A program made the position numbers and the translations under genes. Below, piece by piece: positions 27,394-50,183 of a stretch of 64,000 nt of DNA. Position 1 is the stretch's first letter, and every line of letters begins with the position of its first letter. The stretch is from a virus. The stretch spans positions 124,001 to 188,000 of IMG/VR virus record IMGVR_UViG_3300047510_001118, one strand, 5' to 3'. The notes under the pieces were generated by a model, which saw nothing but the letters and a program-made list of their open reading frames with translations, was not told where the DNA came from and did not search any database.

Positions 27394-28965
27394 ATGCCAA
27401 GATTAAGCCTTTATCGTCCTGAAAAATCGCAAGATTACAAGTTTTTTGACCGTACCGTCTACGAGATGTTTCAAGTAGGCGGCGTTGATCTATATATACA
27501 CAAATATATAGGTACAGAAGATGCCGATGGTGTCAAAAAAAGTGCCACACAAATACAAGATTTGTTGTTTTTAGAAAATCGAGATCGCAAATATGATCAA
27601 GATATTTTTACAATTCGCGGACATTATCAAACACAAGACATCGATTTTAACCTTAGCCAATTTGGTTTATTTTTAAGCAACGATACACTTTTTGTCACAA
27701 TACACATTAATAACAGTGTAGACACTCTGGGACGTAAAATTATGCCCGGTGATGTTATAGAATTGCCTAATTTAAAAGACGAATACGCAGCCAATGACTA
27801 TTCTCAAGCATTAAAAAGATTTTATGTTGTAGAAGAGGTTAATCGAGCCGCAGAAGGATTTTCAGCAACTTGGTACCCGCACTTATATCGTGTAAAATTA
27901 AAGAGCATTGTTGACAGTCAAGAATACAAAGATATACTTGACAGGCCTGCTGATGAATCTACCTATGCTGGCGAATGGAATCCTAATACAAATTATTATC
28001 CTGGACAAACTGTCAAATATAAAGGAATTCTTTACGAAGTTACACAAGAAGTTGTAGGTAATACAGATGTTACAGAAACAACCATTGAGCCTACAGTTAC
28101 AGACGATTGGGCCACTTATTATACTCTAAGCGGAGATGATACACTTAGAGATCTAATGAGTACTTACGAAAAAGAAATAACAATTAGTAATGCTGTAATA
28201 TCTGAAGCAGAAGCAGATGCTCCCAAAAGCGGATATGACACTTCTACTTTTTACACGGTGGCAGTTGATACAGAATCTGGTGACGTTAATCTTACGCTGG
28301 TTAATTCATCTATAGAAGCAACCACTGACACATTAACTAACGATACTCCGCTGCCATTAAGAAACGGATATTCTGGTTATCTGTTAGATGACGGTATTGC
28401 TACTAATGGTCCTTTACCAGGAGATGCTCAATTTGGTTTTGGTATTCAATTTCCTATAGCGCCAGCCTTGGGTGATATGTTTTTAAGAACAGATTTTTTA
28501 CCTAATCGACTTTTTAAATTTGATGGCCGGCGATGGATCAAGCAGGAAGATGCTATGCGTATGACCATGACCAATTCTGATACCCGTCAAACACAAAAAA
28601 CCAGTTTCATTAATAATACTGCTAAATCTGGTATTAGACAACTAGCATCTGACACAATTAAAATTGATTTGACTGGTGATGAGATATGGGAAGCAGGCTC
28701 ATTCACTGTTAACTTTACAATGAGTCTAACATCTGCTACTATATTAACAAATATTAACTATGACGCAGATTATCTTGTAGAAGTGTGGTTAAATGAAACT
28801 AGCAAGGCCGTGGATGTAGCATTTACCAACGTTGCTGGAAAAATAAACATTGTAATTAATCATTCTATCTATGACGGTACTGCTATTAGATATACTGTCT
28901 ATGACAGAGTAGTAACACAACGACAAAGCCTATCAAAGGCATTAAGACCACAGGCGGATAACTAA
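27394..28965 (+). CDS. Neck-type structural protein, gp14-like, with inserted carbohydrate-binding-like module
   Basis: A 523-residue virion protein from ATG 27394; the in-frame ATG at 27388 lies before the predicted transcription start. Residues about 1-180 (MPRLSLYRPEKSQDYKFFDR; IDFNLSQFGLFLSNDTLFVT; IMPGDVIELPNLKDEYA) show the same order of features as T4 gp14: an SxFG-type strand followed by GDxIxxP. Residues about 195-235 (WNPNTNYYPGQTVKYKGILY) look like a CBM5/12-type module, also found repeated in the giant fibre protein. The C-terminal half (FLPNRLFKFDGRRWIKQED; RQSLSKALRPQADN) is of a type I recall from cyanophage structural proteins. It may be a second, gp14-like paralogue. Confidence 0.65.
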   Translation: MPRLSLYRPEKSQDYKFFDRTVYEMFQVGGVDLYIHKYIGTEDADGVKKSATQIQDLLFLENRDRKYDQDIFTIRGHYQTQDIDFNLSQFGLFLSNDTLFVTIHINNSVDTLGRKIMPGDVIELPNLKDEYAANDYSQALKRFYVVEEVNRAAEGFSATWYPHLYRVKLKSIVDSQEYKDILDRPADESTYAGEWNPNTNYYPGQTVKYKGILYEVTQEVVGNTDVTETTIEPTVTDDWATYYTLSGDDTLRDLMSTYEKEITISNAVISEAEADAPKSGYDTSTFYTVAVDTESGDVNLTLVNSSIEATTDTLTNDTPLPLRNGYSGYLLDDGIATNGPLPGDAQFGFGIQFPIAPALGDMFLRTDFLPNRLFKFDGRRWIKQEDAMRMTMTNSDTRQTQKTSFINNTAKSGIRQLASDTIKIDLTGDEIWEAGSFTVNFTMSLTSATILTNINYDADYLVEVWLNETSKAVDVAFTNVAGKINIVINHSIYDGTAIRYTVYDRVVTQRQSLSKALRPQADN

Positions 28966-30398
28966 TGCAACATTTTTATGACGGTCAGATTAGACGATAC
29001 CTAGCACAGATAATCCGTATGTTAAGTGGATTCAAATATAAATCTGCTGACGGAAAAGAAACCACAGTACCAGTAATGTACGGCGACATGACTCGCCAAG
29101 TTGGTGCTATTATCAAAGATAATTCAGAAAACAAACTACCCAGTGCTCCTCGAATTGCAGTTTATATCACTGGCCTATCTATGGATAGAGCTAGACTAGG
29201 AGACTCTACTTATGTCAGTAAAGTACACATTAGAGAAAGAGAAAAAATATTTGACAATGACGGTAATTTAACTGGATACACACAAACACAGGGCGATAAT
29301 TATACCATTGAAAGATTAATGCCTACTCCTTATAAACTTACTGTTAAAGCAGATATATGGTCAACGAACACTGATCAAAAGTTACAGATAATGGAACAGA
29401 TATTAATGCTGTTTAATCCCAGTCTTGAAATACAAACCACTGATAATTTTGTAGACTGGACCAGTCTTAGCGTTGTAGAGTTAACTGAAATTACCTTTAG
29501 TAGCAGAACAATTCCGTCAGGAAATGAAACAGAAATAGACATTGGTGCTCTTACGTTTGAAACTCCCATTTGGATCAGTCCGCCAACTAAAGTTAAAAAA
29601 CTTGGAGTAGTCACAGACATCGTTATGAATGTTTTTGACGCACAGGGAAATCTTAATAATCTTGATGAGCCGACTACGCAAGAATTTGTAAATGTAGGAA
29701 ATTTTGGATTATTAGTGTATAACAACACCCTGACACTATTAAAATATACCAACACTGTTGATTCAGATGATACCAGTGACGCAGTGTTTACCAAAGGCGG
29801 TCCTGAGATTAGTTGGCAGGTTATCTTTGATCAGTATCCTGGTAAATTTCGCAATGATATAAGTCAAATTTTTCTAATACAAGAAAATGGTAATAAAGTT
29901 GTGGGAAGATTAATTTTAAATCCCAGCGATCCCGATGACACAACTAGGTTATTTGTTAATTGGGACACTGATACTTTTCCGACAGACACTCTTATCGAAA
30001 GCACGTTGTCACCCACAGGTAGAACCACTGTAGACGCTGTAATTGATCCAACTAGGTTTAATCCTAGACCTAAATTACCAAATGGTACATTAGGTTGGGC
30101 CGACGCCGGTAGACGATATCTAATACTTGAAGGTATTGGTGCTTCAATAAACACCGACGGTCCTGATGCTTGGAAAAGCATGTCGGGCGACGATTTTCTT
30201 GCCAATGCCAATGATATTATAGAATGGAATGGCACTGCTTGGGAAATAGTTTTAAGCAAGGAAGATCGTAACAGTGTAGAAGAACCTATATATGTAACTA
30301 ATTTACGTACCGGGATTCAATACAAATATTTTGACGATATGTGGACTAAATCGTTTGAGGGCGAGTATCCGAAAGGCACGTGGCGATTAGTTTTCTAA
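28965..30398 (+). CDS. Tail completion/sheath terminator-like protein (gp15-like)
   Basis: A 477-residue structural protein. The N-terminal 230 residues follow T4 gp15: HFYDGQIRRYLAQIIRMLSG (as T4 YFYNSSFRRYATLMGDLFS), VPVMYGDMTRQ, PSAPRIAVYITGLSMDRARL, LMPTPYKLTVKADIW and LQIMEQILMLFNPSLE. The C-terminal half is an additional beta domain absent from T4 gp15 (272 aa). From memory, T4-like cyanophages have both a canonical gp15 and a protein of this type. The start codon overlaps the preceding stop by one base (TAATG), so gp14-like and gp15-like are coupled. The Nudix gene follows 13 bases later in the same direction. Confidence 0.75.
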   Translation: MQHFYDGQIRRYLAQIIRMLSGFKYKSADGKETTVPVMYGDMTRQVGAIIKDNSENKLPSAPRIAVYITGLSMDRARLGDSTYVSKVHIREREKIFDNDGNLTGYTQTQGDNYTIERLMPTPYKLTVKADIWSTNTDQKLQIMEQILMLFNPSLEIQTTDNFVDWTSLSVVELTEITFSSRTIPSGNETEIDIGALTFETPIWISPPTKVKKLGVVTDIVMNVFDAQGNLNNLDEPTTQEFVNVGNFGLLVYNNTLTLLKYTNTVDSDDTSDAVFTKGGPEISWQVIFDQYPGKFRNDISQIFLIQENGNKVVGRLILNPSDPDDTTRLFVNWDTDTFPTDTLIESTLSPTGRTTVDAVIDPTRFNPRPKLPNGTLGWADAGRRYLILEGIGASINTDGPDAWKSMSGDDFLANANDIIEWNGTAWEIVLSKEDRNSVEEPIYVTNLRTGIQYKYFDDMWTKSFEGEYPKGTWRLVF

Positions 30399-30411: not shown

Positions 30412-30846
30412 ATGAAAGATCAGATTGTCTGCTCCGGCGCACTTTTTTATGCTAAATCTACTAAACGTTTTCTACTGCTACAAAAAGCAGAAGGCAAGCA
30501 TGCCAACACGTGGGGACTAGTAGGCGGTACTAACAACGAAGGCGAAACTGCTTGGCAAGGTCTTCAACGAGAAATCCAAGAAGAAATTGGCGCTGTTCCA
30601 AACATTCTAAAAACTATTCCTATAGAAACATTTGTCAGCAATGATACTGTTTTTAATTTTCACACCTATCTCTGTGTAATTTCAGAAGAATTTATTCCAA
30701 CACTCAGTAATGAACACACGGGCTGGGCCTGGTCAACTGTAGACGGTGCTCCTAAACCTTTACACCAAGGTTTAAAATCTAGTTTCAGTAATAAAACTAT
30801 CAGAACTAAACTTCAAACAGTGTTTGATATTGTAGAGCTAATATAA
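30412..30846 (+). CDS. Nudix hydrolase
   Basis: A 144-residue hydrolase that would cleave a nucleoside diphosphate linked to another group X. The Nudix box is complete: Gly39, Glu45, then REIQEEIG at 53-60, so Mg2+ binding and catalysis should be intact. The substrate cannot be read from the sequence; nucleotide sugars, NADH/FAD, capped RNA or 8-oxo-dGTP are possible. It is the first enzyme of the plus-strand arm of the tailoring island and shares a base with the following gene (TAATG at 30846). If it acted on FAD or NADH it would affect the halogenases nearby; that is speculation. Confidence 0.9.
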   Translation: MKDQIVCSGALFYAKSTKRFLLLQKAEGKHANTWGLVGGTNNEGETAWQGLQREIQEEIGAVPNILKTIPIETFVSNDTVFNFHTYLCVISEEFIPTLSNEHTGWAWSTVDGAPKPLHQGLKSSFSNKTIRTKLQTVFDIVELI

Positions 30847-31676
30847 TGTTTAATTGGTTTAAAAAGAAAAAAAGTTGGGTAAGATTCTACTCTCTAGATC
30901 AAAATGTTGCTGTAATGTATCCGGTTATAGAAACTAAACTAGTCGATCGAGACTGGAATGATCTTGCTACCACTGAAAGAAATAGGCCAGAACAAGGACG
31001 ACAGACTGTATTAAATTGTCCAGCAATTAAGCAGGCTATAAATGTCGGTTATGTTCTTTGTGCTCCGGCAGACTTTGTCATCAAGACCGGACCTTCGATT
31101 GAAAATCTAAGTTGGGAAACTCCGTTTTTATTTAAACGCGAATCACAAAAATATACATTCAGCGGCACCGATTATTATGTAAGTTGGCATAGTCCTGCTC
31201 AAACCGAACCGTTGCTACCCAAAGAAATACCTAATTCAGATCGTGCCTGTTTACACTCGGCAGTTAAGGTTGAAACTCCCTGGCGAATAAAGGCCAGCGA
31301 AGATATAGTGTTTTTACAAGTTCCGGTTTCTTATAACAGTGAATCTAGATTTACCGCTGCCATAGGTATAGTCGATCCAAGATACATGCACGCGGTCAGT
31401 GTACAATTATTTTGGCATGTTCTTGATGGAGAAACACTAATCAAAGCAGGCACACCGCTGGTTCAGTACATTCCTATCAGTAGAGAATTATTAAAGAAAA
31501 ACAGTCACGAATTTATCTGTGATTCTGCCACTGACATAGAAAAAGAAATTGAAGAAGCCTATACATTTGCCAATCACAATAGGTTTCCTCGAACTGATAC
31601 TGTATCTAATAAGATTCAAATAATCACAAAATTATTTGATTACTTCCGTAAAAAATACCCAAACTCTAAAATTTAA
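30846..31676 (+). CDS. Unknown halogenase-linked protein, copy 1 (DUF6065-like)
   Basis: A 276-residue protein with no known function. It is clearly homologous to the minus-arm protein at 45444-46232. Shared blocks are the N-terminal RFYSL, the CPxI...APADFxI stretch (about 58-78), ETPWR (about 144-148), the SRFTAA block (about 172-177) and VQLFW...AGTPL...IPxSR (about 190-218). It looks all-beta, possibly a double-stranded helix, without an obvious metal triad. I believe such proteins are catalogued as DUF6065, but could not check. It overlaps the convergent oxygenase gene by 4 bases. Both copies sit near FAD halogenases, suggesting a shared accessory or substrate-presenting role. Confidence 0.8.
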   Translation: MFNWFKKKKSWVRFYSLDQNVAVMYPVIETKLVDRDWNDLATTERNRPEQGRQTVLNCPAIKQAINVGYVLCAPADFVIKTGPSIENLSWETPFLFKRESQKYTFSGTDYYVSWHSPAQTEPLLPKEIPNSDRACLHSAVKVETPWRIKASEDIVFLQVPVSYNSESRFTAAIGIVDPRYMHAVSVQLFWHVLDGETLIKAGTPLVQYIPISRELLKKNSHEFICDSATDIEKEIEEAYTFANHNRFPRTDTVSNKIQIITKLFDYFRKKYPNSKI

Positions 31677-32263
31677 ATGTTTAACTTAGTTAGAGGATCG
31701 GAATTAATTTCTCCTCGAACAAAAGTATTAAACGACAGAGAGATTCTAGGTATTTCTCCTTCGTAGTAATCAACTAGATGTTCTGTATTACTGGGGAAAA
31801 CTAGCATATCGCCGGCTCTAGGGGTTATGGACCAACTTTTTGAGTTATATACGTTGGCTCCCATAACTTGAAATTCAAGAGTGTCATATTGACTAGTTAT
31901 AAATCTAATATTTCCTGTTTCGCCTTCTGATTCTAGATACAGTACACCAGATAAAATAGAATTAGGGTGCCAGTGTCTATGATGACTCTGTCCTTTTTCA
32001 GTTTTGTTCAACCAACTTTCAGTGATATAAATTTCTACTTTAGGACTAACCATCATTATGTTATAAAAATATTCTTTAACTATCTGTTGGCACTTTTCAC
32101 CGAGGTCTCTAAAGTTTTCAGATCCTAATATATCTTGGCTTTCGCTGATCCAATTTTGATAGTTTCTGGCCCATTTAACTGAGCTCAAATCTATGTTTCC
32201 GATATCAACGGGTGCTCGAAATATTGGTTTTGAAAATAAGGGCCAAACGGTTTTTTCTGTCAT
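31673..32263 (-). CDS. 2-oxoglutarate/Fe(II) oxygenase-type protein, HxH variant
   Basis: A 196-residue protein with the double-stranded beta-helix pattern of small phage 2OG oxygenases. Candidate iron site: His97 and His99 in HRHWHPNS, distal His162 in FPSNTEHLV, and Arg173 (IPRISLSFN) for 2-oxoglutarate. The usual Asp/Glu of HxD is replaced by His, as in five other proteins here. It is the only minus-strand gene inside the plus arm, convergent with the DUF6065-like gene and divergent from the next oxygenase. ATG 32263 is preferred to GTG 32278 because a GTG start adds only five residues; neither has a clear ribosome site. Substrate unknown. Confidence 0.8.
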   Translation of the reverse strand: MTEKTVWPLFSKPIFRAPVDIGNIDLSSVKWARNYQNWISESQDILGSENFRDLGEKCQQIVKEYFYNIMMVSPKVEIYITESWLNKTEKGQSHHRHWHPNSILSGVLYLESEGETGNIRFITSQYDTLEFQVMGANVYNSKSWSITPRAGDMLVFPSNTEHLVDYYEGEIPRISLSFNTFVRGEINSDPLTKLNI

Positions 32264-32329
32264 GATGTCTGTTTTCACTTGGTTAACTATGATATATATA
32301 GTGCTTCCCTTGACATTTTACTGACAATT

Positions 32330-32908
32330 ATGAAATTAGAAAAAGACATAGCAATATTTGATAATGTTCTAACCAAAGACGAATGCAGTCAATTAATAGA
32401 ACATTTCAATCGTTTAGAGAAATTAAATCTAAGTTTTACCCGAATAGATCTTAGGGACGCACCTGGACATAAAAAAAATGACCGTGCTACTTTTCCGCTA
32501 GAAGAAACTTCTATGAGATTTTCGTCAGACATGGCCTTTTTAAATGTTTTCTTAGATCGATTTTGGATTTGTTATAATCGGTATATGGATCATTACAGTG
32601 TCTTGATCGACGCACCGAGACAGTATGTTAGATCATTAAAGATACAAAAAACTTTGCCAGGGCAAGGTTATCATGTTTGGCATTTTGAAAATGACGGTAT
32701 TGAACGGGCATCAAGAATCTGTGCTTGGGGAATATATCTTAATACTGTAGAACAAGGTGGAGAAACTGAGTGGCTATACCAGGGCGTAAGAGTTCCAGCC
32801 ACAGAAGGAAGTTTAGTTATATGGCCTGCTGGTTTTACGCACACCCATAGAGGAAATCCTCCACTTAGCGGGGAAAAATATTTAATGACCGGATGGGTAG
32901 AGTTTTAA
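32330..32908 (+). CDS. Prolyl-4-hydroxylase-like 2OG/Fe(II) oxygenase, HxE type
   Basis: A 192-residue oxygenase. The candidate iron ligands are His118 and Glu120 in YHVWHFEND and a distal His at 171 or 173 (FTHTHRGNP). Lys183 (EKYLMTGW) may bind 2-oxoglutarate, as Lys does in prolyl 4-hydroxylases. The N-terminus (IAIFDNVLTKDECSQLIEHF) is the typical start of this family. ATG 32330 is chosen because homologous domains begin with this block. It is translationally coupled to the next oxygenase (TAATG at 32908). Its target could be a protein residue or a small molecule. Confidence 0.82.
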   Translation: MKLEKDIAIFDNVLTKDECSQLIEHFNRLEKLNLSFTRIDLRDAPGHKKNDRATFPLEETSMRFSSDMAFLNVFLDRFWICYNRYMDHYSVLIDAPRQYVRSLKIQKTLPGQGYHVWHFENDGIERASRICAWGIYLNTVEQGGETEWLYQGVRVPATEGSLVIWPAGFTHTHRGNPPLSGEKYLMTGWVEF

Positions 32909-33513
32909 TGGAAGTAATTAATGCTTTTCCTGTCGAATTTTTTGTTTTTAAAAATAAAGATATTGACAATCAGGAATTAATTAAAAAATTAGAACGTCTC
33001 GATAATGTTGAGATTAAAAAAACTACTACTCTTAGTATGTTAGTAGATTTACGTAATTTGCCAGAATTTTCTGATTTATTTTCTTGGTTTAAGTCTTGCC
33101 TTGAAGAAGTACGCCAAGGAATGAAGTTTGACTGCGACCGTTTAGAAATATCAAATAGTTGGTTTAATGTCGCCATGGCAGACTATAAAATGTATCAAAA
33201 CTATCATAGGCATTCTATGAGTTTTTACAGCGCAGTATATTATCTAACTGGCGGGTCATCTACAATATTCGAGGATCCTGTTCGAGATCGAAGCCAAGCA
33301 CAGATTGAAGTTCTTAGACATGACTATCAACCAACATTTGCCTCAGAAGCAGAACCGGGAAAATTAATCATCTTTCCTAGTTGGGTATATCACAATAGTC
33401 GCCCGCATCTAGAAAGTTTCAATCGATATGTAATCAGTTTTAATGTTTTTCCTGCGGGTAAAATTAATTATAATCTAGCCACCGATTCTAAACTTGAGGT
33501 TGAAATAAAATGA
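32908..33513 (+). CDS. 2OG/Fe(II) oxygenase-type protein, HxH variant
   Basis: A 201-residue protein from ATG 32908, coupled by TAATG to the gene before. The N-terminus INAFPVEFFVFKN matches the FPTPIW-type start of the small phage oxygenase family. The fingerprint is NSWFN (83-87), HRHSMSFYSAVYYL with His100 and His102, PGKLIIFPSWVYHNS with His162, and Arg173 in NRYVISFNVFP. ATGA joins it to the first halogenase gene, so it is probably made in equal amounts with it. Activity is inferred from fold motifs; the HxH arrangement leaves the exact iron ligands open. Confidence 0.8.
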   Translation: MEVINAFPVEFFVFKNKDIDNQELIKKLERLDNVEIKKTTTLSMLVDLRNLPEFSDLFSWFKSCLEEVRQGMKFDCDRLEISNSWFNVAMADYKMYQNYHRHSMSFYSAVYYLTGGSSTIFEDPVRDRSQAQIEVLRHDYQPTFASEAEPGKLIIFPSWVYHNSRPHLESFNRYVISFNVFPAGKINYNLATDSKLEVEIK

Positions 33514-35003
33514 TTAAAAGTCTAGTAGTTCTTGGCAGCGGCACAAGCGGCCTATTAGCAGCCTTGATGATGAAAAAAGCATTTAATGATATGTCTGTAA
33601 AAGTAGTAGCCAGCGAAAGAATAGGAATTATTGGCGTGGGAGAAGGGGCCACAGAACACTGGAAATTTCTCTGTAATTTTCTTGGCATTAACATGAATGA
33701 AGCAGTAGTTCATTGTGGTGCTACTATGAAAGTTGGTATTGTGTTTAAAGATTGGGGTGTTCCAGATTATTATCATTCGGTATTTGATAGTTACGCTTGG
33801 AAAAATGGTGAAACATATCCCTTTTATTCTAAATTAATGGGAGATCGAGTTGACTCCATACAGTTGACCGGTCGAGGATCTAGAGAGCCCATTGTTCCCC
33901 TTGGTTGGGCTACTATGAAAGAAGACCCCGAGGCTAGTCAGTTTCATTTTAATACATTTAAACTAAATGAATATCTTCACAGACTATGTAAAGAAAGAGG
34001 TATTGAAATAATTAACGACGAGATAACAGACGTAGTTATAGAAGACGGTGTAGTAAAAGAATTAATAGGATCACAAAAACATTCTGCTGATTTCTTCATC
34101 GACAGTAGTGGAATGGCTAGGGTTATCATAGGTAAACTTGGTGCCCAATGGAACAGTTACGGAAAACATTTAATCACTAATTCTGCTATAGCATTTCCCA
34201 CTGAAGATACCGACGAGTATCCAATTTATACCACAGCCACTGCTATGAAGCACGGCTGGATGTGGAACACTCCAGTCCAAGGACGATGGGGTAACGGTTA
34301 TGTATTCTGTGACAAGTATATTGACTTTGATCAGGCACAGGCCGAGGTAGAAGAAAAACTAGGTAAAAAAGTTAATATATTTAAAAAAATAAAGTTTGAT
34401 CCAGGGACACTTGATAAAAATTGGATCAGTAATTGTTGTGCTATAGGTCTTAGTTCTGGGTTTGTTGAGCCTTTAGAAAGTTCAGCAATAAGTCAAGGAC
34501 TATTACAAACATGGTTATTAATGAATGTATTTCCGTCTTGGGGGAATTCTAAAAAATCTATTACAGATCTCTATAATAGCAAGTGTCGAGCAATCAGCGA
34601 AAACATTTTAGATTTTATAGCAGTTCACTTTATTACTCCTAGGGAAGATACAGAGTTTTGGAAATATTTAAAATTAAATAGATCTAAGTGGGTTCCTAAG
34701 TCTTTAGAAAAAAATCTAAAGAGTTGGCATAAACGAACACCGCTGTCGTTTGAGTTTGACAGTCAATGGACGTTATTTAAAGCAGAAAATTGGATTTTAA
34801 CTTTGTACGGTTTAGGTCTGTTTGATCTAGATGCTATCAAAGAAGAATACGAACTACACGACCAATCAGTTAAAGATTACGTCAACGGATATTTACAAGA
34901 CGAAATAGATTTTATAAACTCTCGAACTTATGTTTCCCATAAAAAAGGTTTAGAGATGTTTGTTGAAAATTTTAATAAAATAAAAACGGAATATAAATTA
35001 TGA
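33510..35003 (+). CDS. FAD-dependent tryptophan-halogenase-type protein 1 (altered WxWxIP)
   Basis: A flavin-dependent halogenase-family protein of 497 residues; PrnA-type enzymes are 510-540. It would use FADH2, oxygen and halide to form HOX, delivered by a catalytic Lys. Visible: dinucleotide fold VLGSGTSGLLAALM (7-20), GVGEGATEHW (42-51), Lys74 in ATMKVGIVFKDW as the candidate catalytic Lys, WMWNTP at 250-255 (canonical WxWxIP changed to WxWxTP) and VEPLESS with Glu320, equivalent to the essential Glu. Gene ends overlap both neighbours as ATGA. It lies first of three in tandem and is closest to the next gene product. The substrate is unknown; known viral halogenases accept varied aromatics. 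Confidence 0.88.
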   Translation: MIKSLVVLGSGTSGLLAALMMKKAFNDMSVKVVASERIGIIGVGEGATEHWKFLCNFLGINMNEAVVHCGATMKVGIVFKDWGVPDYYHSVFDSYAWKNGETYPFYSKLMGDRVDSIQLTGRGSREPIVPLGWATMKEDPEASQFHFNTFKLNEYLHRLCKERGIEIINDEITDVVIEDGVVKELIGSQKHSADFFIDSSGMARVIIGKLGAQWNSYGKHLITNSAIAFPTEDTDEYPIYTTATAMKHGWMWNTPVQGRWGNGYVFCDKYIDFDQAQAEVEEKLGKKVNIFKKIKFDPGTLDKNWISNCCAIGLSSGFVEPLESSAISQGLLQTWLLMNVFPSWGNSKKSITDLYNSKCRAISENILDFIAVHFITPREDTEFWKYLKLNRSKWVPKSLEKNLKSWHKRTPLSFEFDSQWTLFKAENWILTLYGLGLFDLDAIKEEYELHDQSVKDYVNGYLQDEIDFINSRTYVSHKKGLEMFVENFNKIKTEYKL

Positions 35004-36502
35004 TCGATTCTTTGTGTGTATTAGGTGGAGGAACTAGCGGGCTAATAGTTGCGCTTATGGCTCGAGAAGCCTATCCTAAACTAAAAATAACTATGTTAGA
35101 ATCTAGCAAGTTAGGAATTATTGGTGTTGGCGAAGGATCTACAGAACACTGGAAAAAATTTATCAATCAGATTGGAATAAATGTCCCCGAACTAGTTAGG
35201 GAAACCGGCGCAACATTTAAAATAGGTATTAAGTTTACAAACTGGCATGGAGACGGAACGCACTACTTCCATAGCCTCAGTGAACAGTTCGGCAGTCATT
35301 CTTTTAAAAACGGATTACCATTTACATGGTTTCAAATCGTAGGGGAAAATTGGGATCCGCTAGATACTGCTTGGAAATTATCAATGGACAGCCGTCATAT
35401 TGAACCTCTTCATGATATCCTAAGTCAATATCATTTTGACACATTTAAACTTAACGACTACTTACACAGGCTCTGTAAAATTAGAGGTATTGATATTGTT
35501 GACACTGAGGTCGAGGACGTCATTTTAGATGAACAGGGATTTGTTAAAGAATTAATTGATGTAAACCATACTAGACATGCCTATGATTTTTATGTCGACT
35601 GTAGCGGATTCCGACGTGTCATTGGCAGCAAACTAGGCGCAAAGTGGATTGATTGTACAGATAAACTGCCAATGAATTCGGCTATTGCTTTCCCTACAGG
35701 GTATACCGAAGATATTCCTAGTTATACTGAAGCAACAGCATTAACCAGCGGCTGGTGCTGGAGGATTCCAACACAAGAGAGATACGGAAACGGTTATGTT
35801 TTCTGTGATAATTTTATCAATGAAACACAGGCCTATGATGAAGTTTCAGAATATTATAAACAGTCAAACATCGCAGACAAAATAGAAATAGGAAGAAAAG
35901 TTAAATTTGGAGCAGGTTATGTTGACAAATTCTGGATTAAAAATTGTGCGATGATAGGTCTCAGTGGCATATTTGTAGAACCTCTCGAGGCTTCTAGTAT
36001 CGGCACTACTATACAGCAGACATTTATGCTATTGCCAAGTTTAATGTTCTTTAATCGCGACGAAGAAATAACATCTAACAAGTATAATTTTATGATGAAA
36101 AAAGTTTCCACTAACATCGTAGACTTTATACAACTTCACTATTTTACTCAAAGGTCTGATTCAGAATTTTGGCGTTGGTGTAAAAACGAACTAGTATTAA
36201 CTGATTTTAACAAAGAATACCTAGACTATTTTAAAAAGAATATGCCTAATGTATATTATTTTAATGATCCAATGATTCTGTTTAGTCATTTAAATTTTAC
36301 TCAGGTTATGCATGGTCTAAGATTATTCGACAACGATAAAATATTAAAAACTTATGAAAGTCATCTAAGTCAGTATACACTTGAAACCAATAATATTTTA
36401 AAAGATATTGACGATCAAGTAGCAAATAATGAAATATTTTCTCATCGCCAGGCTTTAGAAATTTTAAAAGAAAGATATGAAAAAACACACTATAAACTCT
36501 AA
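35000..36502 (+). CDS. FAD-dependent tryptophan-halogenase-type protein 2 (canonical motifs)
   Basis: A 500-residue flavin-dependent halogenase-family protein. The dinucleotide fold is VLGGGTSGLIVALM (7-20), then GVGEGSTEHW (42-51), candidate catalytic Lys74 in ATFKIGIKFTNW, intact WxWxIP (WCWRIP, 252-257) and Glu327 in FVEPLEASS. All residues expected for halogenation are present. It is a recent-looking paralogue of the gene before it: the same spacing of motifs, KLNDYLHRLC against KLNEYLHRLC, and GNGYVFCD in both. It has an ATGA overlap with the preceding gene and a 26-base overlap with the next. A free FADH2 supply from a host or distant reductase is required. Confidence 0.9.
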   Translation: MIDSLCVLGGGTSGLIVALMAREAYPKLKITMLESSKLGIIGVGEGSTEHWKKFINQIGINVPELVRETGATFKIGIKFTNWHGDGTHYFHSLSEQFGSHSFKNGLPFTWFQIVGENWDPLDTAWKLSMDSRHIEPLHDILSQYHFDTFKLNDYLHRLCKIRGIDIVDTEVEDVILDEQGFVKELIDVNHTRHAYDFYVDCSGFRRVIGSKLGAKWIDCTDKLPMNSAIAFPTGYTEDIPSYTEATALTSGWCWRIPTQERYGNGYVFCDNFINETQAYDEVSEYYKQSNIADKIEIGRKVKFGAGYVDKFWIKNCAMIGLSGIFVEPLEASSIGTTIQQTFMLLPSLMFFNRDEEITSNKYNFMMKKVSTNIVDFIQLHYFTQRSDSEFWRWCKNELVLTDFNKEYLDYFKKNMPNVYYFNDPMILFSHLNFTQVMHGLRLFDNDKILKTYESHLSQYTLETNNILKDIDDQVANNEIFSHRQALEILKERYEKTHYKL

Positions 36503-38027
36503 GGCAATAATTTTAGGTGGTGGTACTGCTGGTTGGCTAACAGCAATTTTCATAAAGCGTAACTGGCCCACTGTAGATGTTTCTGTTATAGAAAATCCCA
36601 AACAACCTCCCATAATTGCTGGAGAAAGTGGCACAACAACATTCGTAAGTCTTCTGCGTCATTTAAAAATTGATGTTGAAGATTTTATTAGGAAAGTCAA
36701 TGCTACTCCTAAATTGGGAGGTAAATTTCGTAACTGGGACAGTGTTGGTTCTGAATTTATTCATAGTTTACAGACAGATTATGCTCCGTGGCTAGACGGA
36801 TGGAACGAATACGTTGATGAAAATACTGAAGTTAATTACAGTCTGACAGCAGTTCGAGGAATGTTAGGACATCAAAGTGATCCGTATCTTAAAACTCTCA
36901 TAGGAAATAATGTTCCTATTGCCGATGCGTTATTCGCAACATATTTTATTAAAGAAAATAAAGTTCCTTTTGGGGCGTCTAGTGATATTCCTTGTATTCC
37001 AATGTGGCATTTTGAAAGTCGAGGAGCCGCGGGTTATTTTAAAAATCTCGGGTTAGAGAGAGGTATAAATCTAATCGAAGGCGAATATCAAAGTTCTAAT
37101 TTAGATGACCGAGGAAATATAACATCGCTGGTTCTTGATGGTGATAGACTAGTTCAAGGAGACTGGTTTTTCGATTGTTCGGGATTCGCTAGACTATTAG
37201 TAGGCAAAGTTTACAATGAAAAGTTAGTTGACTATACAAATTACTTTCCAGCAAGAGCGGTAGTAGCATGGTGGGACGATCCTTGTTATTGTGTCACTAC
37301 TAATGCTACAGCAATGAAATATGGTTGGTCTTGGAATATTAATCTTCGCCATAGATCTGGAAACGGTTATATCTATGACCCGGATCATATAACTCTAGAT
37401 CAAGCACTAGACGAAGCCAAAGAAATGTTTGGCCAGCATATCGAACCCATTGCTAATTTTCAATTCACTCCAGGAATGTTTAGAAAGGCATGGCATAAAA
37501 ATACAGTTGCTATCGGACTTAGTTCTGGCTTTCTAGAACCTTTAGAAGCCAACGGCGTAGCAGTAATTATTGAAAGTTTATATGCTTTACAAGATTATTG
37601 GAAACCTTTTGAAAAATCAATGCGGGAAGAAGCGATAGAAAGATTTAATGATCGTGTCTGGTACATAACAGAAGATATTCGAGACTTTTTATCTCTACAT
37701 TATAGAGGTCATAGATCTGACACAAAATTTTGGCTCAGTCATAAAAATGATGATTTTCGAGTGCCCCCAAGTCTAAAAGAAAAACTAGAAAACTGGAAAT
37801 TATTTTTTGCTAATATGGGGTCGGATCCCGAATGTCACGGATATAGCCCTACGGCGTGGCTTATGGTTTTACAGGGATTAAAAATGTTTGATCATAGTCC
37901 GATAGCGGCTAGCATGAAGAACTTTCTTCCTATAGGAAATAGTGTACTAAATAAGAATGTAGCCCGTTATAAGGGACTTGTTGCTCCATTTTGGACCATA
38001 GATGAGTGGATTCAACGGACAGCATAA
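36477..38027 (+). CDS. FAD-dependent tryptophan-halogenase-type protein 3 (altered WxWxIP)
   Basis: A 516-residue flavin-dependent halogenase-family protein, more distant from copies 1 and 2. It has IILGGGTAGWLTAIF (11-25), AGESGTTTF (48-56), candidate catalytic Lys79 in ATPKLGGKFRNW, WSWNIN at 284-289 in place of WxWxIP, and FLEPLEANG with Glu354. The WxWxIP block is thought to keep monooxygenase substrates away from the flavin, so its change here may alter specificity. The ribosome site is AAAGAAAGAT inside the end of the preceding gene. A CATAAATA late promoter overlaps its stop codon and serves the small gene downstream. Confidence 0.87.
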   Translation: MKKHTINSKAIILGGGTAGWLTAIFIKRNWPTVDVSVIENPKQPPIIAGESGTTTFVSLLRHLKIDVEDFIRKVNATPKLGGKFRNWDSVGSEFIHSLQTDYAPWLDGWNEYVDENTEVNYSLTAVRGMLGHQSDPYLKTLIGNNVPIADALFATYFIKENKVPFGASSDIPCIPMWHFESRGAAGYFKNLGLERGINLIEGEYQSSNLDDRGNITSLVLDGDRLVQGDWFFDCSGFARLLVGKVYNEKLVDYTNYFPARAVVAWWDDPCYCVTTNATAMKYGWSWNINLRHRSGNGYIYDPDHITLDQALDEAKEMFGQHIEPIANFQFTPGMFRKAWHKNTVAIGLSSGFLEPLEANGVAVIIESLYALQDYWKPFEKSMREEAIERFNDRVWYITEDIRDFLSLHYRGHRSDTKFWLSHKNDDFRVPPSLKEKLENWKLFFANMGSDPECHGYSPTAWLMVLQGLKMFDHSPIAASMKNFLPIGNSVLNKNVARYKGLVAPFWTIDEWIQRTA

Positions 38028-40020: not shown

Positions 40021-40636
40021 AAATTTTACCGAGGTTTCCTGAAATTGAAATCCTATAATCGTCTGAACTACTAAATGGATAAACTGTATGCTGTAAGCAC
40101 GAAGGAAACAAAAATATTGTGCCTTCGTAGGTTCGATCTACTGGAAATTCTGCTTCTCGTATTTCTCCAAATATATTAGTGTATATAAAAGAAAACATTC
40201 CTGCTCTGGGCATATTTGATTTTTTTACATGTTTCGTTGATAATTCGTCATCGATATCGTAAGGAACTTGAATCCAAATAGCAAAACTAAATGCTCCATC
40301 GTGACCGTGTATGGGATTAAACTCGTGTTTCTTTTGTAGATTAACCCAGTAATTAGTTAATTTTAAATTGTCTGCTCTTAGATCTTTAGCAGTGTTTGTA
40401 ATTCCCCAGCCAGTGTTATATGCCCTGGCTAGATCAACTAAAAATGTTTCAAGTTCTTCTTTATTTTTTTCTAGTTTATATTCTAGTTCTATGTTGCCAG
40501 CAAGGTTGCTGTTAAAATCCGCAGTTGACGAATTTCTTAATTCTTCAATTTCCGTTTTTAATTTTAAAAACAGTTCATCTGGAACTTTTGCTCTTATAAA
40601 TCCATAATTAGAAAAATTACCGTACATTAGACTCAT
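40013..40636 (-). CDS. 2OG/Fe(II) oxygenase-type protein, HxH variant
   Basis: A 207-residue protein with NYWVNL (95-100), HGHDGAFSFAIWIQVP with His110 and His112, a long inserted loop (about 127-165), then GTIFLFPSCLQHTVYP with His183 and Arg195 in DYRISISGNLG. Asp113 follows the second His and could act as the acidic ligand if the site is shifted. It overlaps its neighbours by 4 and 8 bases. Target unknown. Confidence 0.78.
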   Translation of the reverse strand: MSLMYGNFSNYGFIRAKVPDELFLKLKTEIEELRNSSTADFNSNLAGNIELEYKLEKNKEELETFLVDLARAYNTGWGITNTAKDLRADNLKLTNYWVNLQKKHEFNPIHGHDGAFSFAIWIQVPYDIDDELSTKHVKKSNMPRAGMFSFIYTNIFGEIREAEFPVDRTYEGTIFLFPSCLQHTVYPFSSSDDYRISISGNLGKIYE

Positions 40637-45443: not shown

Positions 45444-46232
45444 TCATCCTTTTTTATATCTAGTTAGTACTGCTATAGAACGTTTTAATCTTGAGGCTAA
45501 ACTATCATGATTTAAAATCACACAGTTTGCGGCATAATTAAAGGCTCTTTCCTTTTCTTTATCACGGTCATTGGCGTTTTCTATTTTAACATCATAACTG
45601 GATAAGGACAAGGATTTTCTTGAAACAGGTATTAATTGGCATAGAGGAGTTCCAGCTCGAACTAGAGTTTTGTCATTTAATACATTCCAAAAAAGTTGGA
45701 CATTTAATACGTGTCCGTATTTCATATCAAGGAACCCCGTGGCTGCTGTGAATCTGCTTTCGTTGTTATAGGTTACAGGCAGTTGAAGTAGCATAACATC
45801 ATCACTGGCTTCAACTCGCCACGGGGTTTCTAACTTTATTACAGTTTTTAAAGTTGTATTGGGATCATCTATCAGCGGTTCTACTTGACTACGTGTATGA
45901 CCAGAAACATAGGCATCACGTCCTTCGCTGACTTTATTGAATCGATAAGGTTCTCTCCATTCCATGCTTACACCGTCACCGTTAGTTTGAATGATGAAAT
46001 CGGCAGGTGCTGGCACTACCCAGCCTGTTGAAATAATTTTTCTAATTCCTGGACAATTTTTAGAACTCAAAGTTTCAGGAAGGTCACCGACCTGTTCCTG
46101 TTCCATAAACGGTCTAACTAACCTTGATGATGGAATAATTGGAAAAAGATCTACTACACCAGGCTCTAGACTATAAAATCTGATATAGGGCTCTTCTTTT
46201 TTACCAAATAATCTTTTACAGAGCGTAGTCAT
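45444..46232 (-). CDS. Unknown halogenase-linked protein, copy 2 (DUF6065-like)
   Basis: A 262-residue paralogue of the protein at 30846-31676. Conserved blocks: IRFYSLEPG (17-25), NCPGIRKIISTGWVVPAPAD (about 59-78), ETPWRVEASDDVMLLQLPV, NESRFTAATGFLD, and VQLFWNVLNDKTLVRAGTPL with IPVSR. It is beta-rich, has no signal peptide and shows no recognised active site. It overlaps the end of halogenase 4 by 17 bases, so the two should be produced together. Linkage of this family to a halogenase in both arms is the best clue to its role. Confidence 0.82.
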   Translation of the reverse strand: MTTLCKRLFGKKEEPYIRFYSLEPGVVDLFPIIPSSRLVRPFMEQEQVGDLPETLSSKNCPGIRKIISTGWVVPAPADFIIQTNGDGVSMEWREPYRFNKVSEGRDAYVSGHTRSQVEPLIDDPNTTLKTVIKLETPWRVEASDDVMLLQLPVTYNNESRFTAATGFLDMKYGHVLNVQLFWNVLNDKTLVRAGTPLCQLIPVSRKSLSLSSYDVKIENANDRDKEKERAFNYAANCVILNHDSLASRLKRSIAVLTRYKKG

Positions 46233-47832
46233 CTTTTCCGCCGTAGATATTATCTTTCAAATATTGATAATGCGTCGGTAGTGTTTTAATATACTCAACA
46301 ACAAAATCTCTATATTCTTCGTATCTACGTTTTGTAAATCCTATTTCTTCTTCTTTAAGTTCGCGTTCGATTCTATCACCGCCGAAGAAAATTAATTCTT
46401 TGGTCGATATTGATTTAACTCCCATGCCGGCTGCAATGAAAATATTTCCAGTATAGTCTTGAAAGTATCTTTGGTTACCGGCTATGTTGCCGACCAAATT
46501 CGGGTACTGTGCTTGATACAACATATAATCACCGTGCATATCAGGACAATATTCGTGTAGTTCAGTACACCAGCGCCAGTAAGGAGTGTCAGTCCTCATC
46601 GACAGAGCATAGTGTTGAGAAACAAAATCTCTAAACTTAGTAACTTCAAAATCTACAGCAAAATTATAGCCTTCAATTTCTGATCTAGTAACAAAGCCCT
46701 GTCTACGGTTAAGAGCATCGACTAGTTTAATAATGTTTTCGTGAGTAGTTAACAGTCCAGTAGACTCTAATGGTTCAACAAATCCATAACTTAGGCCGAC
46801 ACCAACTACATTGGCTAACCATGCTCTTCGACGCTTACCATGTCTAATTTTTACAGGAAACATTTCTGCTTCTTCTGCGATTTTAGGACTGTGTTTTACA
46901 GCCAAATGTGCTCTAAATTCTTTTTGAGCATCCTCGGGTGTTACAAATCTAGTAGAAAATACGTAGCCAGTGCCAATCCTGTTCCAGAGAGGAATATTCC
47001 ATACCCAGCCATTGTCCAAGGCGTGGCAGTCAGTGACATTGTGCATTTCGCGCTCTCTGTCGATGTATGGTAATCTACAGGCCCAAGCCATATCATTGGC
47101 TAGATATTTGTCAAATGGTTTAAATTCAGAACCCATCCAACCTTCTAATAAAATTGATTTGAACCCAGTACAATCGATCCATAGATCCGATTTTAAAATT
47201 CTACCATCATCTAACATGATATCTGTGATATCGCCTCTTGTATTTTTTTTATGCGAATGTACATCGCCTACTATATGTTCAACTCCGTGGGGTAGTGCTA
47301 TTTTTTCTTTGAGATATTTTCCAAAAAGTTGAGCATCAAGATGATATGCTGTATCCCATTTAAATTTATAATTTCTTAGTATACCTTTTTCGTCTTTGGT
47401 TTCTTTATTGTGTTTTGCTAACAGCGTATTTCCTGTAACAAAGAATTCTGCAAAACTTTCTGGCGGATATTCGTCAGGATATAATGTTGATAATTCGCTC
47501 CATGATTGTAGGCCGCCCGGCTTATCAGTATAATCTAACCCAGCACTAAATGGGTATTCAAAAGATTCCCCCTTGCCTTCTCTAAAATTAGTAAAACGAA
47601 TAGAATTTTTATATGTGGCATTACAAGCGGCCATCCAGTCTTCGTCTTTAAGATCTAATAACTGAAGAAATTTATTAATGTGACCTAAGGTGCTTTCACC
47701 AACTCCGACAGTGCCAACTTTGGAAGATTCGACAAGTGTAATCTTTAAATGTGGACACAGTTTAGATAATGCTGCCGCAGTCATCCAACCAGAACTTCCA
47801 CCACCTACTATTGTGACTGTGTTAATCTGCAT
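46216..47832 (-). CDS. FAD-dependent tryptophan-halogenase-type protein 4 (canonical motifs)
   Basis: A 538-residue flavin-dependent halogenase-family protein, the closest of the four to PrnA/RebH-type enzymes in length. Visible: TIVGGGSSGWMTAAAL (7-22), GVGESTLGH (43-51), candidate catalytic Lys75 in NATYKNSIRFTNF, intact WxWxIP (WVWNIP, 276-281), IGTGYVFS, and FVEPLESTG with Glu353. It should be able to form a halogenating flavin peroxide with an external FADH2 source. It is the first gene of the 14-gene minus arm and has a ribosome site (AAGGAAAG) behind a perfect late promoter. Substrate unknown; free tryptophan, another aromatic or a peptide side chain are possible. Confidence 0.93.
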   Translation of the reverse strand: MQINTVTIVGGGSSGWMTAAALSKLCPHLKITLVESSKVGTVGVGESTLGHINKFLQLLDLKDEDWMAACNATYKNSIRFTNFREGKGESFEYPFSAGLDYTDKPGGLQSWSELSTLYPDEYPPESFAEFFVTGNTLLAKHNKETKDEKGILRNYKFKWDTAYHLDAQLFGKYLKEKIALPHGVEHIVGDVHSHKKNTRGDITDIMLDDGRILKSDLWIDCTGFKSILLEGWMGSEFKPFDKYLANDMAWACRLPYIDREREMHNVTDCHALDNGWVWNIPLWNRIGTGYVFSTRFVTPEDAQKEFRAHLAVKHSPKIAEEAEMFPVKIRHGKRRRAWLANVVGVGLSYGFVEPLESTGLLTTHENIIKLVDALNRRQGFVTRSEIEGYNFAVDFEVTKFRDFVSQHYALSMRTDTPYWRWCTELHEYCPDMHGDYMLYQAQYPNLVGNIAGNQRYFQDYTGNIFIAAGMGVKSISTKELIFFGGDRIERELKEEEIGFTKRRYEEYRDFVVEYIKTLPTHYQYLKDNIYGGKDDYAL

Positions 47833-47937: not shown

Positions 47938-48429
47938 TTATTCTTTATTGCCCCACCAACCGTCAAATCGCTTCCATGCTGGTAGTTCTGAACTGCTTGG
48001 ATGATTTGGTTTTTCTGAGGAAGGTTCCTCTGTGGCAGCTCGAGCCATAATGTCTTCTAAACGTTCTGGTTCTTGTGCTACAGGTTTTGGTATTAAGGAC
48101 TTAACATTAGTAACATGTTGTGCCCAAGGGCCGTTTGAGCTTAATGTTCCCGTTTCCATAAGTTCGTGATAAATCATGTCTAATTGCTGGCCAATTTGAC
48201 CATAGGCCACAGACCTTGCCACAGAATTATCTGTGAACGGACCATCCCGCTCTACCCATACCATTCTTTCCTGATTTGGACTCCATTCTAAAGTCCAGTC
48301 TAGCGTAATTTCATCAGGAGCATCGACCCACTGAATCGTAGCATCAGGTCCATTATAAATTTCATAATCTTCGCCGGGTTCGACTATCTGTGAAACCCAA
48401 CCTTGATAACTGATAAGTGCTTTTTTCAT
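47938..48429 (-). CDS. Probable tail-fibre assembly/chaperone-like protein (163 aa)
   Basis: The N-terminal 75 residues are beta-like and Trp-rich. The middle (AYGQIGQQLDMIYHELMETG, about 74-93, followed by a VKSLIPKP stretch) resembles the conserved part of short proteins found next to marine phage tail fibres and in fibre-assembly chaperones. The C-terminal 40 residues are Pro/Ser/Glu-rich and end FDGWWGNKE. It lies directly downstream of three adhesin-like genes. Its own TATAAATA promoter is five bases from the ATG, which predicts a leaderless message. Confidence 0.65.
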   Translation of the reverse strand: MKKALISYQGWVSQIVEPGEDYEIYNGPDATIQWVDAPDEITLDWTLEWSPNQERMVWVERDGPFTDNSVARSVAYGQIGQQLDMIYHELMETGTLSSNGPWAQHVTNVKSLIPKPVAQEPERLEDIMARAATEEPSSEKPNHPSSSELPAWKRFDGWWGNKE

Positions 48430-48452: not shown

Positions 48453-49310
48453 TTATTTTTTATATTCTTCAATTACTACAATTCCTGGGCGACCGTCTGA
48501 TCCCCTGTGCCCATGGAAATATCCACCTGTGCCGCCAGTTCCTGGCGCACTGTGTCCTTGGTGATTATGACTAAAGTGGCCTCCTTGCGGATGTCCGCTA
48601 GGTGCTGGACCACCAAAGTGACTAGTGCCGCCTGGACCAAAACTATGATGATGTGCGCCACCACCACCTTGATGTATATTTAAATCTCCACCACTACCTG
48701 AGGCACTAACTCCACCCGAGTGCTGGTTTTGTCTATTAGCGCCATGTCCTCCGCCTGCTGACACATATGGACCAAATGAACTACCGTTGCCGTTACCGCC
48801 AGCGCCCGCATAGTATGTTCCGCCACCGCCGCCGCCGATAGTAATACCTACTGAACTAATACTAGTAACATCCATAATTCGTTCAGCATAACCACCTGCT
48901 CCGCCACTTTCTCCGTGACCACTGGCACCACCTCCTGCGCCCTGTACCTTAACCCGAATATATCGAACACCTGCTGGTCTATTCCAAGTACCGTTGCTAG
49001 TAAACACTGACATCCCGCTAAAACCTATTTGAGAGTATTCGTAGGCATTATTTGATGGATTAACTCTAAGAACTGAATTTGAGCCGCCAACACTAGTGAG
49101 TCCTGTGCCTCCTTTACCTACAGGCATAGTTCCGGTAGATACACTGCCAGCAAGATCAACAGAGCTTCCTGCTAATTTACCCGAAGAAACTGCCCCACCT
49201 TGAATATTAGTGGTTGTAATGGTAGTGGATGCTATCTTAGCATTAGTAATAGTGCCGTCGATAAATGATGCACTAACTAAACGTTTTAATGATTGATAAT
49301 CAAATGGCAT
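48453..49310 (-). CDS. Glycine/histidine-rich tail-fibre adhesin, copy 1
   Basis: A 285-residue fibre-tip-type protein. The N-terminal domain (MPFDYQSLKRL; KGGTGLTSVGG near 65) is shared with two neighbours and probably attaches it to the fibre. Residues from about 105 form a Gly-rich domain (VQGAGGGASGHGESGGAGG; GITIGGGGGGTYY) like the glycine-rich-motif tips of T-even gp38 adhesins, ending in a His-rich part (GGHFSHNHQGHSAPGTGG; HGHRGSDGRPGIVVIEEY). The stretch about 205-235 differs between copies and is likely the receptor-contacting loop. HxH motifs could bind metal, as in the T4 gp37 needle. It is coupled to copy 2, 12 bases upstream. Confidence 0.85.
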   Translation of the reverse strand: MPFDYQSLKRLVSASFIDGTITNAKIASTTITTTNIQGGAVSSGKLAGSSVDLAGSVSTGTMPVGKGGTGLTSVGGSNSVLRVNPSNNAYEYSQIGFSGMSVFTSNGTWNRPAGVRYIRVKVQGAGGGASGHGESGGAGGYAERIMDVTSISSVGITIGGGGGGTYYAGAGGNGNGSSFGPYVSAGGGHGANRQNQHSGGVSASGSGGDLNIHQGGGGAHHHSFGPGGTSHFGGPAPSGHPQGGHFSHNHQGHSAPGTGGTGGYFHGHRGSDGRPGIVVIEEYKK

Positions 49311-49322
49311 GCTACTATCCTA

Positions 49323-50183
49323 TTAGAAAAATTCTGTAATTACTACGATTCCAGGACGACCATCAGAACCTCGATGTCCATGGAAATATCCGGCAGTTCC
49401 GCCAGTGCCAGGAGCACTGTGTCCTTGGTGGTTATGACTAAAGTGGCCACCTTGCGGGTGACCTGCTGGTGCTGGGCCTCCCCAAAAACTGGCTCCTCCC
49501 ATTCCCGATGAACGCTGTTCGTGGCCACCGCCTGAACCAGTATGTATGTTAAAATCGCCGCCGCTGCCAACTCCACTTAGACCACCGTTGTGGTTGTTAT
49601 GTCTATTGGCGCCGTGGCCTCCACCTGCTGACACATATGGACCAAATGAACTACCGTTGCCGTTACCTCCGGCATTGTTATAGTATGTTCCGCTACCGCC
49701 ACCACCTACAGTAATACCAACGTTATTGATACTATCGACATTTAACAGTCTTTCAGCATAGCCACCTGCAGCGCCACTTTCACCGTGACCGCTGGCTCCG
49801 CCAGCACCGGCCTGTACTTGGATCCAGATATATCGTACTCTGCTATCTCCCTTACTCCAAGTTCCGTTTCCGGTAAAAACTACCATTCTATAAATGCCTG
49901 TTGGGCGGAATTCAATACTATTATTTGATGAATTAGTAGCAAGTAGATTATATGCGCCACCGGTGCTTGTACTACCTGTTCCGCCTTTGCTAAAAGGTGT
50001 AGTTCCGCTGACTACACTAGAACCAAAGTCTACTGAACCAGAACCTAATTGGGTTGCTGTAATAGTATTAGGGGCTAGTTCTGCGTTGGCTACAGCATCA
50101 GTGGCAAAGTCCGATCCAACTAGAGTTGAATTAACTAAAGCACTGTTTGATAGTTGTTTTAATGATTCATAATCAAATGGCAT
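49323..50183 (-). CDS. Glycine/histidine-rich tail-fibre adhesin, copy 2
   Basis: A 286-residue paralogue of copies 1 and 3. The same plan: attachment domain (MPFDYESLKQLSNSALVNS), KGGTGSTSTGG linker, Gly-rich body (AGAGGASGHGESGAAGGYAE; GITVGGGGSGTYY) and His-rich C-terminus. The variable loop about 205-235 reads GSGGGHEQRSSGMGGASFWG, unlike the other two copies. RSSG-type polar residues there may set receptor choice. It has an AAGAGAT ribosome site and 10- and 12-base gaps to its neighbours. Confidence 0.85.
   Translation of the reverse strand: MPFDYESLKQLSNSALVNSTLVGSDFATDAVANAELAPNTITATQLGSGSVDFGSSVVSGTTPFSKGGTGSTSTGGAYNLLATNSSNNSIEFRPTGIYRMVVFTGNGTWSKGDSRVRYIWIQVQAGAGGASGHGESGAAGGYAERLLNVDSINNVGITVGGGGSGTYYNNAGGNGNGSSFGPYVSAGGGHGANRHNNHNGGLSGVGSGGDFNIHTGSGGGHEQRSSGMGGASFWGGPAPAGHPQGGHFSHNHQGHSAPGTGGTAGYFHGHRGSDGRPGIVVITEFF

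Follow-up and report, generated by a model that had tools for sequence, protein, structure and literature searches.

The 64,000-nucleotide stretch of viral DNA analysed here (hereafter the window; positions 124001-188000 of the 278,126-base IMG/VR record IMGVR_UViG_3300047510_001118) encodes four enzymes of the Trp_halogenase family (PF04820), termed C1 to C4, which are also the only ones in the record. C1, C2 and C3 stand in tandem with overlapping ends, and comparison with related viral contigs indicates that they represent three enzyme types, distinguished by the WxWxIP motif, whose joint presence is, on sequence evidence, a well-supported, fixed and conserved feature of the viral enzyme set. 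It is very probable that the variant motifs are fixed in clades under purifying selection, that the three types are kept side by side, that the I position of the motif changed at least twice, and that the C4 type lies beside tail adhesin genes. With a probability of about one half, the C1-C3 set, the VirX1-type C4 and about a dozen oxygenase-like genes would together form a module that modifies the virion, namely its tail adhesins.

Three motif types in a conserved tandem set

All four copies scored far above the curated PF04820 cut-off (296-349 bits versus 21), and the other three share only 23-44% identity with C1. In a four-way alignment, the blocks GWMWNTP (C1), GWCWRIP (C2), GWSWNIN (C3) and GWVWNIP (C4) occupied the same ungapped columns with both Trp residues invariant, which rules out comparison of a wrong block, an objection anticipated in the preliminary description of this locus. 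Strict WxWxIP is thus present in C2 and C4 but not in C1 and C3, and the residue positions (Table 1) agree with the earlier account that all four retain the candidate catalytic Lys and the Glu of the EPLE block. The residues following this Glu split the copies differently from motif 2, with the ESTG block of VirX1 occurring in C4 only, and the canonical-versus-variant division is, at the sequence level, one of several among the four enzymes. The core of the published patterns for the Trp4 motif, which relates to binding of free Trp (PMC8269204), was found neither in the four window copies nor in any of 394 viral sequences. Because C1 and C3 lack the strict WxWxIP, and flavin-dependent halogenases (FDHs) with a variant motif or none are known (PMC8407142), we file both as putative FDH-type enzymes of PF04820 rather than as proven halogenases.

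For comparison, 286 fetched loci plus the window yielded 668 halogenase open reading frames (ORFs) by profile search, which were reduced to 626 of at least 330 aa (42 shorter matches left out), to 401 unique sequences after removal of duplicates, and to 394 after removal of seven rows gapped in the motif columns; the tree of these 394 was built without the motif columns. The underlying scans kept 80 of 188, 80 of 171 and 80 of at least 591 loci, picked by similarity to the window, and the flanks of the loci spanned 10 kb, so that counts of absence are lower bounds. Loci sharing sequence were merged, from 287 to 130 clusters. The bacterial control consisted of 144 ORFs from the best 80 bacterial loci among the matches listed, and is a limited one.

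Runs of at least three tandem halogenases occurred in 28 of the 130 clusters, and 25 of these 28 combined an I-variant (I to S, T or A), at least one canonical copy and a P-variant. The prevailing order, found in 21 runs, was I-variant, canonical, P-variant; two runs read canonical, P-variant, I-variant, one read I-variant, canonical, canonical, P-variant, and one read canonical, P-variant, I-variant, canonical. The three exceptions were L038, with an unclassified first copy, L071 (canonical, canonical, P-variant) and L109 (P-variant with the Glu lost, canonical, canonical). The 25 include L110, L123 and L206, where both order and clades differ. The split noted beforehand is real and goes beyond two classes, changes at I and changes at P each defining a variant type of its own.

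The first slot of the set is of particular value in this respect. In 20 of the 21 runs of the commonest order it was occupied by a member of another clade, C2b, and by C1 in the window only. For instance, contig L021 matches the window in the order and strands of 21 labelled genes, except that its first slot holds a C2b enzyme (WHWRSP). In a careful tree, C1 fell outside the group formed by C2, C2b and their canonical relatives, and the approximately unbiased test rejected C1 and C2b as one clade (p = 0.0017, an indicative value, the groups having been named after a first tree). Because the tree separates C1 from C2b and the test rejects their union, the I position has, on this phylogeny, changed at least twice, and slot 1 is filled by two unrelated I-variants. 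That the same kind of enzyme refilled the same slot argues that the enzyme types have different jobs; different substrates, another halide preference and plain oxidation, all named in the earlier account, are candidates for what sets them apart.

WxWxIP had been called a hallmark of the family, which holds for C2 and C4 but not for viruses at large, since only 213 of the 394 viral sequences carried the strict form. Among the 401 unique viral sequences, the I position read I in 313, S in 42, T in 18, V in 18, A in 6, G in 3 and L in 1, and the P position read P in 332, N in 56, S in 6, D in 2, C in 2, G in 2 and Q in 1. These changes were not scattered: all 55 sequences with N at the P position that entered the tree fell into one clade, and the C3 clade (60 members, support 1.0) contained no P at this position. 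WMWNTP was present in 9 of 9 members of the C1 clade, and the 46 members of C2b had S (39), A (5), T (1) or I (1) at the I position. The phylogeny proposed beforehand, to see whether the variants form old clades, thus gave a positive answer. Both the C1 and the C3 clade are under purifying selection similar to that on canonical copies, with a median ratio of nonsynonymous to synonymous substitution rates (dN/dS) of 0.096 (6 pairs) and 0.128 (79 pairs), respectively, compared with 0.09 in C2 (31 pairs), 0.084 in C2b (87 pairs) and 0.12 in C4 (125 pairs). Decay into pseudo-enzymes was ruled out by the intact frames, dN/dS values of about 0.1 and the retained Lys and Glu.

Besides N289 in the motif, the C3 clade has specific changes at P45, I47, A48 and G52 (GE loop), P78 and G82 (around the Lys) and N359 (after the Glu). 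Five of its 60 members, all basal (L109, L111, L116, L119 and L257), kept the Lys and had lost the Glu of the EPLE block (EPLG), the second Trp of the motif (WxF) and its P, so that the C3 lineage may leave the standard chemistry.

A bacterial source of the variants was considered and rejected, as N at the P position occurred in none of the 144 bacterial ORFs of the limited control, in which G (8), A (5) and Q (2) were found instead. Likewise, among these 144 ORFs only one WRWRSA (L363) and four rows lacking one of the Trp residues of the block had S or T instead of the I. In one bacterial halogenase group (e.g. L312, L318, L319, L321 and L336), WxWxIP is replaced by WxWDIG or WxWDIA.

Fold and predicted chemistry of the variant enzymes

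Structure prediction, which had been recommended for all four enzymes, was carried out for C1 and C3, and placed both in the halogenase fold (AlphaFold2, predicted local distance difference test scores of 91.4 and 89.7, respectively). The best structural match of the C1 model was 8fov (E 2.7e-37); for C3, the one enzyme compared by VIA-align, 6y1w was matched with Z 42.7 and a root mean square deviation of 2.4 over 473 residues, a comparison that informs on fold only. Together with the fold of these two models, the window enzymes share GxGxxG, the Lys and the EPLE Glu with the flavin-dependent Trp halogenases PrnA, RebH, Thal and PyrH; in contrast, all four lack the Trp4 lid motif, C1 and C3 lack strict WxWxIP, and C1-C3 lack ESTG. 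A precedent for this fold acting on a peptide residue is MibH (5uao, by its title a lanthipeptide Trp 5-halogenase; Z 38.2 to the C3 model), which, unlike the window enzymes, belongs to the biosynthesis of ribosomally synthesised and post-translationally modified peptides rather than to a phage, and has no close sequence relation to them (130 and 126 bits). As in C3, the P is replaced and both Trp residues are kept in 9lu2, a putative FDH reading WIWDIA, and in bacterial relatives reading WIWDIG or WIWDIA, but these are bacterial and carry G or A rather than N.

According to the accepted mechanism, C4a-hydroperoxyflavin and halide give hypohalous acid (HOX), which travels about 10 Å to the Lys (PMC10696468). 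The WxWxIP motif is proposed to stand as a shield between flavin and substrate and thereby to prevent hydroxylation (PMC10696468, PMC8407142), although the 2023 review describes the roles of its single residues as unclear (PMC10696468), and a model of the FDH CHEESY1 places the motif I among the residues of the substrate site (PMC12645471). In the window enzymes, reduced flavin adenine dinucleotide, O2 and halide would likewise yield HOX, which would pass through a tunnel to the conserved Lys next to the Glu, as in RebH, Thal and VirX1. We infer that C1 and C3 still use this route, with a changed partition between flavin and substrate: the strand that carries the motif change (T254 in C1, N289 in C3) would alter the shape of this partition, in C3 together with the clade-specific residues at 45, 47, 48, 52, 78, 82 and 359, and each enzyme type would thereby act on a different site.

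C4 and its adhesin neighbourhood

C4 is, by homology, a VirX1-type halogenase: it aligns with VirX1 of cyanophage Syn10 (6qgm) over residues 2-532 with 661.6 bits, it shares with VirX1 its full length, WVWNIP, ESTG and a site between tail-fibre genes and 2-oxoglutarate (2OG) oxygenases, and it is 54.7% identical to the product of the Syn10 gene, in whose ORF a peptide of 6qgm was located. By contrast, C1-C3 are distant from VirX1 (C1 125 bits, C3 123 bits) and differ in motif 2 or in the block after the Glu.

The layout around C4 recurs in other phages. Syn10 shows the order adhesins, 164-aa gene, two halogenases, 262-aa gene and oxygenases, as in the window; the 262-aa-type gene adjoins C4-type halogenases in Syn10, Syn9, S-CREM1 and P-TIM40; S-CREM1 and S-SZBM1 follow the same plan, with at least three oxygenase-type genes downstream of the halogenase; and Sf-FR1 has fibre genes, halogenase, a 262-aa relative, an oxygenase and neck genes. 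In phage records, which were counted by identity to C4, the adhesin was present in 19 (10 named phages), all 19 of which have a C4-type enzyme (40-64% identity to C4) within 3 kb, and the 163-aa gene was present in 20, all with a C4-type enzyme. In viral contigs, ORFs like the first adhesin were found in 40 of 57 other C4 clusters versus 1 of 54 clusters without any named clade, counts that rest on a loose label of 112 members which was not monophyletic once bacteria were added to the tree. Such ORFs were also found in 21 of 36 C3 and 10 of 26 C2b clusters, and the C1-C3 triad is tied to the adhesins by the shared island only.

With regard to candidate target residues, Y165, H195 and H218 of the adhesin were kept in 100% and N190 and N209 in 98% of 159 sequences. 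The Gly-rich adhesins (48453-51045) thus show strong conservation at His, Tyr and Asn positions, although such proteins might be expected to vary fast. According to the proteome data given in PMC9146016, virions of S-SZBM1 contained the products of _51 to _54, encoded upstream of adhesin and halogenase, while those of _46 (the halogenase) to _50, among them the adhesin _49, went undetected; this pattern fits an enzyme acting before assembly, weakly so, since it relies on non-detection. In three adhesins of the window, digestion with trypsin would yield peptides as long as 76, 57 and 77 residues, which predicts poor coverage of these proteins.

Because a gene for a tail-sheath stabiliser (PF16724) is present, the virus is, judged by its gene content, a T4-like tailed phage. 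The cyanobacterial marker psbA gave no match in the record, which is possibly fragmentary, and the host is therefore not established; flavin reductase PF01613 likewise gave no match in this possible fragment.

Table 1. Window coordinates of the four halogenase-family genes and of the genes around them.
Feature	Position	Strand	Remarks
T4-type tail-sheath stabiliser (PF16724)	28965..30398
276-aa relative of the 262-aa partner	30846..31676	+	both match the same Syn10 protein
2OG-Fe(II) oxygenase (PF13759)	31673..32278	-
2OG-Fe(II) oxygenase (PF13640)	32279..32908	+
2OG-Fe(II) oxygenase (PF13759)	32893..33513	+
C1, Trp_halogenase-family flavoenzyme	33510..35003	+	WMWNTP (I to T), opening Trp 250; GxGxxG at 9; K74; E323; ESSA; AlphaFold2 model
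C2, Trp_halogenase-family flavoenzyme	35000..36502	+	canonical WCWRIP, opening Trp 252; GxGxxG at 9; K74; E330; EASS
C3, Trp_halogenase-family flavoenzyme	36477..38027	+	WSWNIN (P to N), opening Trp 284; GxGxxG at 14; K79; E357; EANG; AlphaFold2 model
11 small ORFs between C3 and C4	38241..45228	-
PF13759 ORFs in the C3-C4 run	39412, 40013, 43203, 44620	-	39412 barely above cut-off
JmjC_2 ORF in the C3-C4 run	42512	-
DUF6445 ORFs (two) in the C3-C4 run	40633, 41241	-
ORFs without Pfam match in the C3-C4 run	38241, 38861, 41941, 43826	-
262-aa partner protein, phrog_7084	45444..46232	-	function not assigned; adjoins C4
C4, VirX1-type halogenase (by homology)	46216..47832	-	WVWNIP, opening Trp 276; GxGxxG at 10; K75; E356; ESTG
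163-aa partner protein, phrog_1787	47938..48429	-	function not assigned; between adhesin and C4
Gly-rich tail fibre/adhesin 1 (phrog_863; Gly_rich_2)	48453..49310	-	proposed substrate
Gly-rich tail fibre/adhesin 2 (phrog_863)	49323..50183	-	proposed substrate
Gly-rich tail fibre/adhesin 3 (phrog_863)	50194..51045	-	proposed substrate
Fourth tail-fibre-like protein	51064..51891	-
3225-aa tail fibre / virion structural protein	52242..61919	-	CBM_5_12 repeats

Several further observations concern these neighbours. The genes at 30846-31676 and 45444-46232 are related, and one stands near each halogenase group; a profile search for homologues of the 262-aa partner near bacterial halogenases gave 0 matches, and this candidate link was dropped. 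Profiles of the DUF6445 genes (40633-41948) matched single ORFs near halogenases in 5 of the 80 bacterial loci (L288, L301, L331, L347 and L353), and the 40633-type DUF6445 was the best match in 18 of 25 clusters with both C4 and C3 and in 0 of 32 C4 clusters without C3. In the 3225-aa tail fibre protein, six stretches match CBM_5_12, and one weak match is phycobilisome-like. Trp_halogenase-like proteins are also encoded by the unannotated human fecal phage records MT835646 and MT837902 (H190, H191).

Competing explanations and the proposed role of the module

Published readings of the cyanophage gene prnA favour a metabolic role (PMC2984593, PMC9964418), and halogenated amino-acid or sugar metabolites or a decoration of the capsule have been suggested as well (PMC7824862). 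Following these, the window enzymes would be auxiliary metabolic halogenases adding chlorine or iodine to free tryptophan, indoles or phenols, resulting in antibiotic protection of the host or a competitive metabolite, and the many small aromatics accepted by VirX1 in vitro (PMC8407142) would agree with such a role. We nonetheless consider it unlikely, as none of the four copies has the Trp4 substrate motif, VirX1 is described as having no helical lid over the Trp site in the structural account cited (PMC7948982), C4-type genes come after tail-fibre genes instead of standing in a metabolic operon, and no genes of such a pathway were seen among the window ORFs examined.

Two further explanations concern the variant motifs themselves. 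If WxWxIP acts as a shield against hydroxylation, its opening in C1, C3 and, elsewhere, C2b might turn these enzymes from halogenation to hydroxylation, for which the additional clade-specific changes of C3 (GE loop, surroundings of the Lys and region following the Glu) and the loss of the Glu in its basal branch could be quoted. However, C1 and C3 keep both motif Trp residues, the Lys, the Glu, the halogenase fold and the signature of purifying selection, bacterial relatives with IG or IA for IP exist, the putative halogenase 9lu2, whose structure is solved, aligns as WIWDIA, and variants or absence of the motif are known among FDHs (PMC8407142), which makes a general switch to hydroxylation improbable. 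Still less probable is a neutral origin of the motif changes, in which one position would accept I, S, T or A and the next P or N without effect, and four enzymes of the same function would form a dosage array. Motif 2 is indeed loose in viruses and the wider family allows G, A and Q at the P position, but N is confined to and fixed in a single clade, the combination of types was kept across lineages even after an unrelated I-variant had replaced the first copy, and the other copies share no more than 23-44% identity with C1.

Modification of the virion by the C1-C3 set, C4 and the oxygenase-like genes would thus be the most economical reading, with the adhesins as its presumed target. In its weaker steps, aromatic or His residues of the tail fibre or adhesin proteins would be modified in the cell before assembly, and the 2OG and JmjC enzymes would hydroxylate other residues of the same proteins; the JmjC_2 group includes protein hydroxylases. 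Several points weigh against this proposal. Contigs of one lineage are not independent, hence 25 of 28 runs overstates the number of events, and the strongest points for the set are rather the replacement in slot 1 of the window and the differing orders in L110, L123 and L206. One C2b member, L097, retains the I (WSWQIP), and the Glu-less part of the C3 clade may do other chemistry. Gene neighbourhood does not prove the target, and VirX1 is known for the iodination of small molecules (PMC8407142). The adhesins contain little of the classic substrate Trp (0.71% of their residues, versus 23% Gly). Furthermore, 46 of the 65 phage records matching C4 have no detectable adhesin of this family, so that only the C4 type, not the more distant halogenases, is tied to the adhesin, and in S-B64 and S-MbCM6 such distant halogenases are surrounded by genes for replication or photosynthesis. 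Even among the 22 records at least 40% identical to C4, Sf-FR1, Sf-CH11 and Sf-CH1a gave no adhesin match, although in Sf-FR1 and Sf-CH11 tail or structural genes are still located just upstream of the halogenase.

Among the papers listed in literature searches for a link between halogenases, tail fibres and 2OG oxygenases, none was seen to propose that phage tail proteins are halogenated. The literature on cyanophage halogenases, in the passages cited above, suggests chemistry on free Trp or metabolites; the link to adhesins is a different and directly testable proposal, since measurements of the virion proteome already exist for phages of this kind (S-SZBM1, S-CREM1). In addition, the tandem set offers a natural experiment on single WxWxIP residues, in which enzymes alike in Lys, Glu and fold, but not in the I or the P, stand side by side, and in which the I would have changed twice independently. 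More tentatively, and with some reserve, we suggest that T4-like phages might carry a maturation factory for adhesins, in which VirX1-type halogenases, the three-type set and 2OG/JmjC oxygenases would halogenate and hydroxylate conserved Tyr, His and Asn of the phages' own Gly-rich adhesins prior to assembly; VirX1 would then natively serve this purpose, and the I- and P-variants may be specialised for different residues or a different chemistry.

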